From: a candidate division BRC1 bacterium HGW-BRC1-1
Lineage (GTDB): Bacteria; Sumerlaeota; Sumerlaeia; Sumerlaeales; Sumerlaeaceae
Assembly (NCBI GenBank): GCA_002842095.1
Contig: PHCB01000008.1
Location: forward strand, 273,231-316,987
Reading direction: 5' to 3'
DNA length: 43,757 nucleotides
Position 1 is the stretch's first letter; each line of letters starts with the position of its first letter. The translations under genes were made by a program, and so were the position numbers. Of this stretch, positions 10,381-31,537 are shown one piece after another. The notes beneath the pieces were generated by a model. It was not told the origin of the DNA and did no database searches. It saw nothing but the letters and a program-made list of their open reading frames with translations.

Positions 10381-10526
10381 CGCACGGTATAACGCATTCG
10401 CATGCTATTTATTCGGTCACACTTCCGTCATCGCGGGTCGATTTCCTTTGATTCTTCCGCGCTGAAAACGGTAGGTTACAACCGAAGCATGAGCCTCTGC
10501 TACGTTAGTACAGGTTGATCTTTTAT

Positions 10527-10671
10527 TGAGCCAACGCCTTCCAATTGGGAGCCCGATATTTGGTCGTTTTAGGACACGCCCCCTGCGGGGGGATCTCCCT
10601 GGCGGCAGTGAGGGTACCCACCTTAAATGAAGGTTCAATGATATCGGCTTCTACGGCGATGCGGAGGCTCG
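10527..10671 (+). ncRNA. ssrS: 6S RNA (RNA polymerase regulator)
   Basis: 6S RNA mimics an open promoter and sequesters housekeeping RNA polymerase in slow growth. Conserved segments are visible: GAGCCCGATATTTGG (10550-10564) resembles the 5' arm around the central bubble of known 6S RNAs, and CCACCTT, AAGGTTCAA, then CGGCTTCTACGGCGATGCGG (10619-10664) resembles the 3' arm. The ends close by GAGCC/GGCTC and CGC/GCG pairs (10528-10537 with 10661-10670), followed by six T. The length of about 145 nt is short for the family, and the exact ends and the fold of the apical part were not confirmed. It lies 136 bases upstream of dnaX on the same strand; an SRP RNA, often found near dnaX, was considered, but its conserved GGUCAGG...AGCAGCC core is absent. 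Confidence 0.75.
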
Positions 10672-25885: not shown

Positions 25886-25960
25886 TGGAGGCGACGAGCG
25901 GATTCGAACCGCTGAATAGAGGTTTTGCAGACCTCCGCCTTACCACTTGGCTACGTCGCC
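25886..25960 (-). tRNA. tRNA-Cys (GCA)
   Basis: A complete cloverleaf on the minus strand: acceptor GGCGACG/CGTCGCC, a T-arm with GGTTCGAATCC, and an anticodon loop with GCA (25926-25928). The discriminator base is U (25889), as expected for cysteine, and CCA is encoded (25886-25888). It lies between lpxI and the ylxM-like gene on the same strand. Confidence 0.97.
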
Positions 25961-25992: not shown

Positions 25993-26853
25993 CTATTTTT
26001 CAGAATGGCAAGCAAGCATCGCAATGTTGCCGTCCGTGGCCAGAGCGAGCACTTCTTCCCGGTCAAAAAGCAGTGTCTCACCTGCCGAGAAAGCGATGGC
26101 TGAACACTGGGCAGCGATCATTTTCTTCAAGGTTGTGCGGCCAATGATCGGGATATCAAAGCGCATGTCCTGCTGAGGTTTGCTCACTTTGATAACAACG
26201 CAGCCCGGGCCCGCCAACTCTCCGGCTCGCGTTATGCATGCGTCAGTACCCTCAAGCCCTTCCACGGCAACCACCACTAATTCCTTCACCACGATGGTCT
26301 GCCCCACATCGAGGCCCGCAATGGCCTTGGCGAGGGGCATTCCGAATTGAACATCGGCCGCTTCGCGCTCGGTAAGTGGACGCCGGGGTGTCAGAAGTCC
26401 CTCTGCGGGCATTAATGATTTAAGGAAGATTGAGGAATCCATAACCTCGATTCCCTCCTTGCCCAGCTCCCTCGTCACCACGCCCAGAATTGTGTCAGCT
26501 TTGCGGTTGATAGCCCGAGCAAGCATTTTCAATCCACGCGCGTCGAAATGCCTATATTGGAAAATAGAAGAGTGGGGCACCCGCCCTGCTAGGGTGACGG
26601 CCTTGATGTCGTTCTCTTTTAGAATGGAGAGAATCCTGGAGATCTGACCCAGTTCTACCCAGTGGATTTCTGTCGCATCGTGTTCAAGGTCGGGGGATGC
26701 AAAGCCACGAATGGCAATAACCGTTACCGCGACATCTGCTGCGCGAGCAGCCCGAGCAATGAGTTTTGGAAAGTCCCCCTCACCGGCAATCAGGCCCATG
26801 TGACCATGGTTTTGAGCGGGCTTTTCTGTTTCGGTTAGATACTTGGAGGTCAT
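25993..26853 (-). CDS. lpxI: UDP-2,3-diacylglucosamine pyrophosphatase, LpxI type
   Basis: Lipid A pathway enzyme that hydrolyses UDP-2,3-diacylglucosamine to lipid X; LpxI replaces LpxH in several lineages. From the ATG at 26851-26853 the protein has 286 aa. Recognisable: MGLIAGEGDFPKLIARAARA at the N-terminus, VTLAGRVPHSSIF, and the C-terminal domain VVEGLEGTDACITRAGELAG and KPQQDMRFDIPIIGRTTL. It shows that the cell makes lipid A. The upstream open frame, which would add 67 residues, overlaps the shell-protein gene and is rejected. It lies 13 bases downstream of the BMC gene on the same strand, so they are likely co-transcribed. Other lpx genes are not here. Confidence 0.93.
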   Translation of the reverse strand: MTSKYLTETEKPAQNHGHMGLIAGEGDFPKLIARAARAADVAVTVIAIRGFASPDLEHDATEIHWVELGQISRILSILKENDIKAVTLAGRVPHSSIFQYRHFDARGLKMLARAINRKADTILGVVTRELGKEGIEVMDSSIFLKSLMPAEGLLTPRRPLTEREAADVQFGMPLAKAIAGLDVGQTIVVKELVVVAVEGLEGTDACITRAGELAGPGCVVIKVSKPQQDMRFDIPIIGRTTLKKMIAAQCSAIAFSAGETLLFDREEVLALATDGNIAMLACHSEK

Positions 26854-26866
26854 GGGAACGAGAAAA

Positions 26867-27172
26867 TCAGGCTTTACGGCCGGATTTCTTCTTCGCCTGC
26901 ACCGTCTCCAGGGAGGAGATGCCTGGTCCTGTCCGGGCGATAACGTGAGAACTGACCAACTCGCCCACGCGTTTTCCGGCCGCAGCGCCTGCTTCCACTG
27001 CAGCTTTAACAGAGGCCACATCTCCGCGCAGTAACACGGTAACCAGCCCGGCATCGGCCTTTTGTGTTGAGATGATTTCCACCTCGGCTGCCTTCAAGGC
27101 TGCATCGGCGGCCTCAACTGCGCCGATGAATCCGCGCATCTCAATCATTCCCAATGCTTCGTTGTCTGCCAT
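26867..27172 (-). CDS. Bacterial microcompartment shell protein, single BMC domain (BMC-H)
   Basis: A 101-aa protein of the BMC family, whose hexamers tile the shell of carboxysomes and metabolosomes. The fold is clear: ALGMIEMRGFIGAVEAADAA at 6-25, an edge lysine at 27 (KAAEVEI), the pore loop at 38-42, GLVTVLLRGDVASVKAAVEA at 42-61 and HVIAR at 76-80. In canonical hexamers such as PduA the pore loop reads KIGSG; here it is KADAG, placing Asp and Ala at the pore. The C-terminus ends in a basic tail (KKKSGRKA). No other shell gene, pentamer or encapsulated enzyme is in the window, although 43 kb are covered. lpxI follows 13 bases downstream, and ptsI diverges on the other side. A TTGACG box lies on the minus strand at 27238-27243; no good -10 was found. 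Confidence 0.93.
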   Translation of the reverse strand: MADNEALGMIEMRGFIGAVEAADAALKAAEVEIISTQKADAGLVTVLLRGDVASVKAAVEAGAAAGKRVGELVSSHVIARTGPGISSLETVQAKKKSGRKA

Positions 27173-27369: not shown

Positions 27370-29184
27370 ATGACAATACGGGAACGTATATTCGACGGGA
27401 TTGCCGTTTCAGCCGGTTATGCTGTGGGGCGCTCGCATGTGGCCAACCGAGACGCCGGATTGAAAGCCGAGGCACACCCGCTTCATCCCGATGAAGTGGA
27501 CGGCGAAATCTCGCGATTTCTCGAAGCCGTTACGCAGGCGCGTGATCAACTCATGCGAATCCATCGGCAGGTTGCTGAAACCCTGGATGCGAAACATGCG
27601 GAAATTTATCTGGCGCAGTCGATGATGCTCGATGACGCGGACCTTCTTGACGCAACCATTTCCGATATTCGCACCGAATTGCTCAACTCGGAATTCCTCT
27701 TTGCACGTCGCCTGAATCTGCACATCGAGCTGATGCAGCAGTTCGACGATGAGATCCTGAAAGCCCGCGATAGCGACATCATGGATGTCGGAAACCGTGT
27801 GCTGAGAAACTTGCTCAATCCCCATGCCGACGGTCGTTGCGTAACGCTTGAAGCGTGGTGCGTTCTCGTTGCCCACGATCTCCCGCCTTCGGAAGCGACT
27901 CCGTTGTTAAAGGAGAAGGCCATCGGCCTGGTTCTGGAGAAGGGCGGTCCCACCTCCCACACGGCCATCATGGCCAAGGCCCTTGAGATTCCTGCGGTTG
28001 TCGGGGTGCCGGACATCACGAAGTTTATCGAAGAGGGTGCGATCACCATCGTCGATGGGGTTTTTGGTCGGGTGGTCATCAACCCCACCGCAGAAACGCT
28101 GTTGGCCTACGAAGAAAAGCAGCGGGATTATCTCACTTACGAACGCGGTTTGGAAACCCTTCGAGATGTGCCCGGTGAAACGATAGATGGATATTCGGTC
28201 AAATTGCGCTCCAACATTGAACTGCCCGAGGAGATTGCTCACATTGAGGGTCACGGGGCGAAGGGCGTGGGACTGTTCAGAACAGAATTTCTGTTCCTGA
28301 ATCGCTCCGAACCACCATCGGAAGATGAACAGTTTCGGATCTATCGACAAGTGGTTGAGGGTGTAAAACCCGACTCCGCGGTTGTGCGCACAATAGATAT
28401 TGGTGGAGATAAATTTTTCTCCCACATGGGGCTTCCCACCGAGTTAAATCCCTTTATGGGCCAGCGAGCCATTCGGCTCTGTCTCCAACATACCGACATT
28501 TTTCGCACCCAACTGCGGGCCATGCTACGGGCCAGCGCTTACGGGCGGCTTCGTATTCTCATTCCCATGATTTCCGGGATTGAGGAGTTCCTCGAAGTGA
28601 AGCGCCATCTCAAGGCTGTGAAGCAGGAGTTGCGCGCCAACCATCAACCGTTCGATGCCCATATCGAACTCGGCGCGATGATCGAAGTGCCGTCTGCCGC
28701 CGTGGTCGCAGACATGCTTGCGCGGGAAGCGGATTTCTTCTCCATCGGAACCAACGACCTGATCCAGTACAGCCTCGCAGTCGATCGCGGAAATGAAAAG
28801 GTGGCGTATCTCTACGAGCCGCTTCATCCCGCCATTTTACGCCTCCTGCGCACGATCATCAATGCCGGTCACGATGCAGGCATCCCGGTGAGTGTCTGCG
28901 GTGAAATGGCCGGCGACCCCATGATGGCCGTGATCCTTGTGGGCATGGGGATCGACGAGCTTTCCATGAGTTCAATGTCCGTTCCCTCGGTGAAAAAGCT
29001 CATTCGCTCCATCCAACTCAGTGAAGCGAAGTTGCTCGTGGAAGACATCATGGGCCAGAACACCATCGACGGGGTAAAGAAACTCGTCTGGCGTCGTTTG
29101 CGGCGATACGTAAAACAGAACAAGTTGCACGTCAGCCACCTCTCCCACGCCAACGACATGCCCTCGCCGGCTTCTGCTGCGTAA
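27370..29184 (+). CDS. ptsI: Phosphoenolpyruvate-protein phosphotransferase (PTS enzyme I)
   Basis: First enzyme of the phosphotransferase system: takes phosphate from PEP and passes it to HPr. The 604 aa cover the N-terminal HPr-binding and phospho-histidine domains (active H197 in GGPTSHTAIMA) and the PEP-binding barrel with the catalytic C510 in SVCGEMAGDP; GLFRTEFLF and GAMIEVPSA are also in place. No HPr or sugar permease gene is near. Together with hprK it suggests a regulatory phosphorelay rather than sugar uptake. The protein has a slightly extended, basic C-terminal tail (from about 575). Its divergent partner is the BMC shell gene. Confidence 0.96.
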   Translation: MTIRERIFDGIAVSAGYAVGRSHVANRDAGLKAEAHPLHPDEVDGEISRFLEAVTQARDQLMRIHRQVAETLDAKHAEIYLAQSMMLDDADLLDATISDIRTELLNSEFLFARRLNLHIELMQQFDDEILKARDSDIMDVGNRVLRNLLNPHADGRCVTLEAWCVLVAHDLPPSEATPLLKEKAIGLVLEKGGPTSHTAIMAKALEIPAVVGVPDITKFIEEGAITIVDGVFGRVVINPTAETLLAYEEKQRDYLTYERGLETLRDVPGETIDGYSVKLRSNIELPEEIAHIEGHGAKGVGLFRTEFLFLNRSEPPSEDEQFRIYRQVVEGVKPDSAVVRTIDIGGDKFFSHMGLPTELNPFMGQRAIRLCLQHTDIFRTQLRAMLRASAYGRLRILIPMISGIEEFLEVKRHLKAVKQELRANHQPFDAHIELGAMIEVPSAAVVADMLAREADFFSIGTNDLIQYSLAVDRGNEKVAYLYEPLHPAILRLLRTIINAGHDAGIPVSVCGEMAGDPMMAVILVGMGIDELSMSSMSVPSVKKLIRSIQLSEAKLLVEDIMGQNTIDGVKKLVWRRLRRYVKQNKLHVSHLSHANDMPSPASAA

Positions 29185-31000: not shown

Positions 31001-31057
31001 ATTGTTGCACAGTGAACAACGGGAATGGAAAACGGCGGTGAGAGAAGGAGGTACAAC

Positions 31058-31537
31058 ATGAAGGTTGCATTTACAAACGACCATGCCGGCTTCCCTGCTC
31101 GTGAGCAGTTGATGAAGAGATTGCATGAGTTGGGCCACGAGGTTGTGGATTTCGGAGCCCAGTCGACGGATTCCGTGGATTATCCCGACTATGCCGTGCC
31201 GGCCGTCGAGGCGCTCATGCGTGGAGATGTGGACCGCGCAGTGTTGGTCTGTGGCAGCGGTGTGGGCATGAGCATTGTAGCCAACCGTTTCCCCGGAGTC
31301 AGATGTGCTCTGGTTACCGACCTCTGGGCCGCCGAGGCAAGTCGCTCCCATAATGATTCAAACGCTCTCTCACTGAGAGAGCGTGAGCAACCCATCGAGT
31401 TAAACGTCCAGATCATGGAAAAATGGCTCGCAACCCCTTTTGAAGGGGAGCGTCATCTTCGTCGGGTTAGAAAAATCGACACCCTGACCGATTCCTGCAC
31501 CCATCAAGAAATAAAGAAAGACGAGAACCTGCATTGA
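31058..31537 (+). CDS. rpiB: Ribose-5-phosphate isomerase B
   Basis: Interconverts ribose 5-phosphate and ribulose 5-phosphate in the pentose phosphate pathway. The 159-aa protein starts at an ATG with GGAGG 7 nt upstream; an earlier in-frame ATG at 31025 is less likely. Diagnostic: [33 protein letters not shown] with the catalytic Cys, [19 protein letters not shown], and [11 protein letters not shown]. The segment following the SHNDSN motif (LSLREREQP) departs from the usual LSLGAR. The stop overlaps the TTG start of glyA (TTGA). Confidence 0.95.

Follow-up and report, generated by a model that had tools for sequence, protein, structure and literature searches.

The window, a 43.8-kb stretch (G000:C3:273231-316987) of the draft genome of candidate division BRC1 bacterium HGW-BRC1-1, contains on its minus strand a gene for a 101-residue bacterial microcompartment (BMC) shell protein of the BMC-H type (26867..27172, ATG at 27172). 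The gene lies between ptsI and lpxI, as the first-pass annotation had described. lpxI (25993..26853, minus strand, PF17930 and PF06230) follows on the same strand after 13 intergenic bases, while the ptsI-like gene (27370..29184, plus strand) is a divergent neighbor that we use as a synteny marker only. The window also contains an RpiB of type A (31025..31537, plus strand, PF02502) within a rpiB-glyA block, which we rejected as the compartment RpiB because it is a housekeeping copy that lacks a C-terminal tag. Two RNA genes were additionally observed, a 6S RNA at 10491-10671 on the plus strand (RF00013, 69.8 bits) and a tRNA-Cys (gca) at 25886-25960 on the minus strand, directly downstream of lpxI.

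A domain profile search identifies one full BMC domain in the shell protein (G000:C3:300163-300387; PF00936, 92.9 bits, E 1.2e-26, positions 1-74 of 75) against a curated cut-off of 24.5 bits, and the solved structures closest to it are those of HO-5815, PduA/EutM and similar BMC-H proteins, HO-5815, from the HO BMC, being the nearest natural one. The open reading frame is thus not a chance reading, and its description as a single-domain BMC-H is confirmed. A search of the genome with PF00936 and PF03319 found no second BMC-H, BMC-T or BMC-P in the 43.8-kb window, all other matches lying outside of it. The gene is consequently “lone” within the window but not within the genome, where four more shell genes are present elsewhere.

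Both an unusual pore loop and a basic C-terminus had been reported for this protein and both are indeed present. The loop reads K38-A39-D40-A41-G42 (27047..27061, minus strand) and the tail reads AKKKSGRKA (26870..26896, minus strand). Orthologs of this window-type BMC-H occur in six further genomes of the family, and in all seven proteins D40 is invariant and the last 20 residues include 4-6 Lys or Arg, versus 2-3 in the other BMC-H. Beyond these orthologs, only two of the roughly 450 other BMC domains in the loci that we fetched have Asp at this position. A sequence alignment pairs D40 with the Gly that opens the usual GSG/GGG, equivalent to Gly39 of PduA, whose neighbor Ser40 is the residue that we take to line the pore. 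Thus the Asp that was proposed to be at the pore does occur in the loop, but is aligned beside the presumed pore-lining residue. Together the seven window-type orthologs make up a single clade (support 100/99) on a long branch, and among the family members they share 61-92% identity over their first 80 residues versus 96-100% for the other BMC-H from the same genomes. The other, strongly conserved BMC-H is probably the bulk facet protein. The window BMC-H, more divergent and with its Asp and basic tail, is probably a minor hexamer with a role in tuning permeability or in binding at one of its faces. A specialized minor hexamer is, from its sequence features, its most likely role. A related arrangement is found with the CcmK3/K4 satellite shell genes of beta-carboxysomes, where a distant extra hexamer has been proposed to tune permeability (PMC8217296, PMC5853843). 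The likeness is in the distant extra hexamer gene; the difference is that carboxysomes retain a main locus while here all shell genes are scattered.

The order ptsI / BMC-H > lpxI is retained in 6 of the 7 family members that have shells, which rules out a contig-join error as the source of the BMC-lpxI pair. The pair is embedded in a long syntenic block of about ten genes (trpG-trpE-hisI-UDP-sugar dehydrogenase-ylxM-lpxI-BMC-H-ptsI-rpiB-glyA). Cotranscription of BMC-H and lpxI, as originally suggested, is likely given the 13-base gap, but this does not imply a link to lipid A, as the pair is part of this long conserved block and as the window-type BMC-H of genome G003 has no lpxI beside it in the 12 kb that was read. 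We therefore rejected lpxI as a functional clue and attribute the pairing to general synteny of a housekeeping block. A functional tie between BMC-H and lpxI or the envelope, for example as a scaffold, would agree with the close spacing and with the order conserved in six genomes, but conservation extends to the whole neighborhood, and the G003 gene that lacks lpxI instead has a tagged RpiB about 0.7 kb away, leaving such a tie extremely improbable.

The remainder of this 3.77-Mb draft genome (34 contigs, 94.8% complete) contains a second BMC-H (C2:53434, PF00936) and three BMC-P (C3:329758, C2:193887 and C11:72165, PF03319). With the window gene there are two PF00936 and three PF03319 genes, or five shell genes at five places. 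No further shell gene is present within the roughly 10 kb read on each side of the second BMC-H and of the three BMC-P, and the neighbors of the scattered shell genes (gmk, galT, purH and uridine kinase) look like housekeeping genes by eye. Several candidate cargo genes are likewise dispersed. An aldehyde dehydrogenase (AldDH) of the CoA-acylating PduP/EutE kind (C31:113986-115437, L060 1378..2832; PRK15398, 611 bits) is the sole member of this kind among the few aldehyde dehydrogenases of the genome; its CIAEKEV motif is intact, and its N-terminus has a helix resembling an encapsulation peptide (EP), MDDRTISQIVDEVTRRLQSG, followed by a PTPAPTAG linker. The single-copy DeoC (C24:43527-44402, L065; TIGR00126, 277.8 bits) has an intact VKTSTGF motif and an extension of about 70 residues, in which an EP-like helix, MDNLRPDQIEQIVRAVVERVSAS, and a linker precede the aldolase domain. 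RpiB exists in two copies, with type A in the window and type B, which has a C-terminal extension or tag, at C16:59739 (PF02502). The gene that follows the second BMC-H encodes a flavoprotein-like protein, which matches PF02441 and, weakly, TIGR02536. Its N-terminal helix is amphipathic and is accompanied by a Pro/Ala-rich linker, and its C-terminal segment resembles the RpiB tag by eye. PduL (PTAC, PF06130) was not found in this genome and was rejected as the phosphotransacylase on account of this absence. Together the shell and candidate cargo genes occupy eight sites on six contigs. These four additional shell genes and the tagged enzymes support the earlier proposal that the window BMC-H may supply a distant compartment. 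The refuting condition named there, other shell genes together with a full BMC operon, applies only by half: other shell genes exist, but the search of this genome revealed no BMC operon, and the system is scattered.

A relic, or a lone sheet or tube that is independent of the other shell proteins, would fit the window gene in that it evolves faster than the other BMC-H and is located apart from every other BMC gene. Yet all seven shell-bearing family members have the gene intact and in the same location, its core residues and Asp40 are invariant, and all of the other shell genes are also solitary, so isolation is the rule here. We consider a relic or lone assembly very unlikely, and the initial suggestion of a sheet or tube in place of a classical metabolosome is not needed, with nothing found in its favor.

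A comparison of 41 genomes (this one and 40 others) indicates that the scattered parts occur together. BMC-H is present in 25 of these genomes and BMC-P in 26, nearly always in three copies. AldDH orthologs scoring above 370 bits are present in all 25 genomes that have BMC-H and in none of the 15 that lack both BMC-H and BMC-P (Fisher 2.5e-11, a p-value that ignores shared ancestry), while the single genome with BMC-P only has an AldDH fragment. Among the shell-bearing genomes that lack a PVM locus and in which DeoC was found, 20 of 21 show an extension of at least 50 residues in this enzyme, versus 1 of 8 shell-less genomes; the length hinges on the start codon chosen, and the p-values ignore kinship. 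Individual genomes depart from this pattern; G037, an 84% complete draft, has an EP-like DeoC with no shell found, G014 has shells and a DeoC match without the extension, and in G024 DeoC was looked for and not found. The tagged RpiB of type B was read in 16 shell-bearing genomes. The parts are scattered in the relatives as well, and as these include G004, with its single contig of 3,289,105 bp, a fragmented assembly does not account for the dispersal. In G004 the BMC-T and an RnfC-like protein are at 91 kb, one BMC-H at 586 kb, DeoC at 673 kb, the window-type BMC-H at 875 kb, BMC-P at 906, 1162 and 2850 kb, AldDH at 1143 kb and RpiB type B at 3238 kb. BMC-T and the neighboring RnfC-like electron-transfer protein are present in most relatives; both are found in G001-G004 and G007 and both are missing from the genome studied here and from G005, which suggests their joint loss in these two genomes.

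Across the 16 genomes that were aligned, RpiB type B has a conserved C-terminal extension that reads roughly RKVVTVQDVKDALxRKESLLxDxxTIxTPSVLDL. A profile of this tag was searched over the 10,975 open reading frames of all fetched loci, a set enriched in BMC loci, and besides RpiB it matched only BMC-linked proteins, each match being weak when taken singly (E 6e-5 to 0.008). The matches are to the N-terminus of a class II aldolase encoded in a PVM-like locus, to two flavoprotein-like proteins, of which one is encoded together with DeoC in a compact clostridial locus, and to one protein on a BMC-bearing Acidobacteria contig.

Shell genes with other architectures were observed during these comparisons. 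Single open reading frames of about 295-312 residues with three BMC domains in tandem occur at L057:9190-10128, L058:9007-9888, L030 and L033 (from genomes G031, G013, G035 and G033) and at G009:C311:5576-6394; two such chains could pair to resemble a hexamer. Additionally, a Candidatus Handelsmanbacteria locus encodes a 379-residue protein with four tandem BMC domains (L073:8874-10013), in the vicinity of shell genes with two domains or one and of an AldDH that is close to the one described here.

Comparable sets of genes are also found in compact form. In G039, which belongs to the same phylum but to another class, a single contig has BMC-H, BMC-P, AldDH, an RnfC-like protein, BMC-T, RpiB, two BMC-P and a flavoprotein-DeoC fusion. 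Loci of Bacteroidales, Pseudogracilibacillus (Bacillota), a Mycoplasmatota bin and others combine BMC-H, three or more BMC-P, AldDH, RpiB and DeoC. Compact loci with these parts are the sugar phosphate utilization (SPU) type of the 2021 catalogue, which comprises BMC-H, BMC-P, AldDH, DeoC (PF01791) and RpiB (PF02502) (PMC8217296). The present system shares this parts list, with a DeoC-type PF01791 aldolase and two PF02502 proteins in this genome and with BMC-T in most relatives, but differs in that there is no locus at all, the enzymes and shell genes being on different contigs or far apart, and in that its RpiB has a C-terminal tag, which is absent from the compact loci that were read. The AldDH also resides on another branch of the tree, where the class and one Handelsmanbacteria sequence form a clade apart from G039 and from seven SPU-locus AldDHs (100/100), a sampling that is limited. 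This placement provides no support for common descent with the sampled SPU loci, nor for a compact G039-like locus as the direct ancestor of the scattered system, which we rejected on this basis. Thus, the evidence supports a system that works like SPU, but not one that is a member of SPU. PVM-like loci with a class II aldolase, a lactate/malate dehydrogenase and PduL were observed in G015 (L055:3342-11554), together with acetate kinase, and in G034 (L056:4593-10829); their AldDHs nest inside the class clade that is otherwise linked to scattered shells. The genome studied here is not of this type, as PF06130 is absent and no class II aldolase (PF00596) is recognizable by eye near its shell genes in the stretches that were read.

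With respect to layout, the closest counterparts are the FRAG BMCs of candidate phyla, which have AldDH, a BMC-P triplet and shell genes spread over as many as six sites (Sutter et al. 2021, PMC8217296). The likeness covers all of these features as well as the lack of locus organization: five shell genes at five places without a main locus, as also in G004, and three PF03319 genes here and in most shell-bearing relatives. The difference is that FRAG1-7 were catalogued without an obvious signature enzyme (PMC8217296) whereas here cargo can be proposed, namely tagged DeoC, tagged RpiB and a tagged flavoprotein-like protein. The HO BMC of Haliangium similarly has a BMC-P triplet and AldDH, and some genomes of this type have, as here, a remote PF01791 aldolase with an EP-like extension (PMC8217296), but HO has a main locus and the present system has none.

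The layout of the scattered system is therefore that of FRAG and its parts are those of SPU. We consider it likely that these genes encode a dispersed metabolosome of the FRAG type with SPU-like chemistry, in which the window BMC-H would be one of two facet hexamers, the divergent one. Most likely, judging from the predicted cargo, it helps build a compartment that degrades deoxyribose phosphate, the sugar released from DNA. Inside the shell DeoC would cleave 2-deoxyribose 5-phosphate into glyceraldehyde 3-phosphate and acetaldehyde, AldDH would capture the acetaldehyde as acetyl-CoA before it can escape, RpiB would isomerize pentose phosphate, and phosphotransacetylation would fall to another enzyme in this genome without PduL. 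Alternatively, the metabolosome could be of the FRAG type but draw its aldehyde from another source or from several, with DeoC as one cargo enzyme among others and with a main substrate other than deoxyribose. This would agree with an AldDH lineage distinct from the sampled SPU dehydrogenases, with the use of the same AldDH clade by the class II aldolase loci of G015 and G034 and with FRAG types described without an obvious signature enzyme (PMC8217296). We regard this alternative as rather unlikely, as the DeoC extension tracks the shell and as tagged RpiB, a second SPU marker, is present in 16 shell-bearing genomes.

FRAG and SPU BMCs and their parts were known already; what is unusual is the complete dispersal and the link to deoxyribose phosphate. 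The literature that we searched, which lies largely outside subscription journals, contains no SPU-like assignment for a FRAG-like BMC, no FRAG function and no compartment of this lineage. With somewhat less assurance than for the FRAG-type assignment itself, we favor a complete metabolosome that would be encoded gene by gene at eight or nine unlinked sites throughout much of a class of an uncultured lineage, that would act as a deoxyribose-phosphate compartment and that would include the Asp-pore, basic-tailed BMC-H as a family-specific hexamer. The case would be one of a many-part organelle whose genes are placed singly among housekeeping genes, so that its cargo would be missed by operon-based searches. 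If this interpretation is true, then a FRAG-type BMC gains a chemical function and BMC assembly needs no operon; if tagged DeoC and RpiB are FRAG cargo, then an orphan organelle type acquires a function that can be tested.
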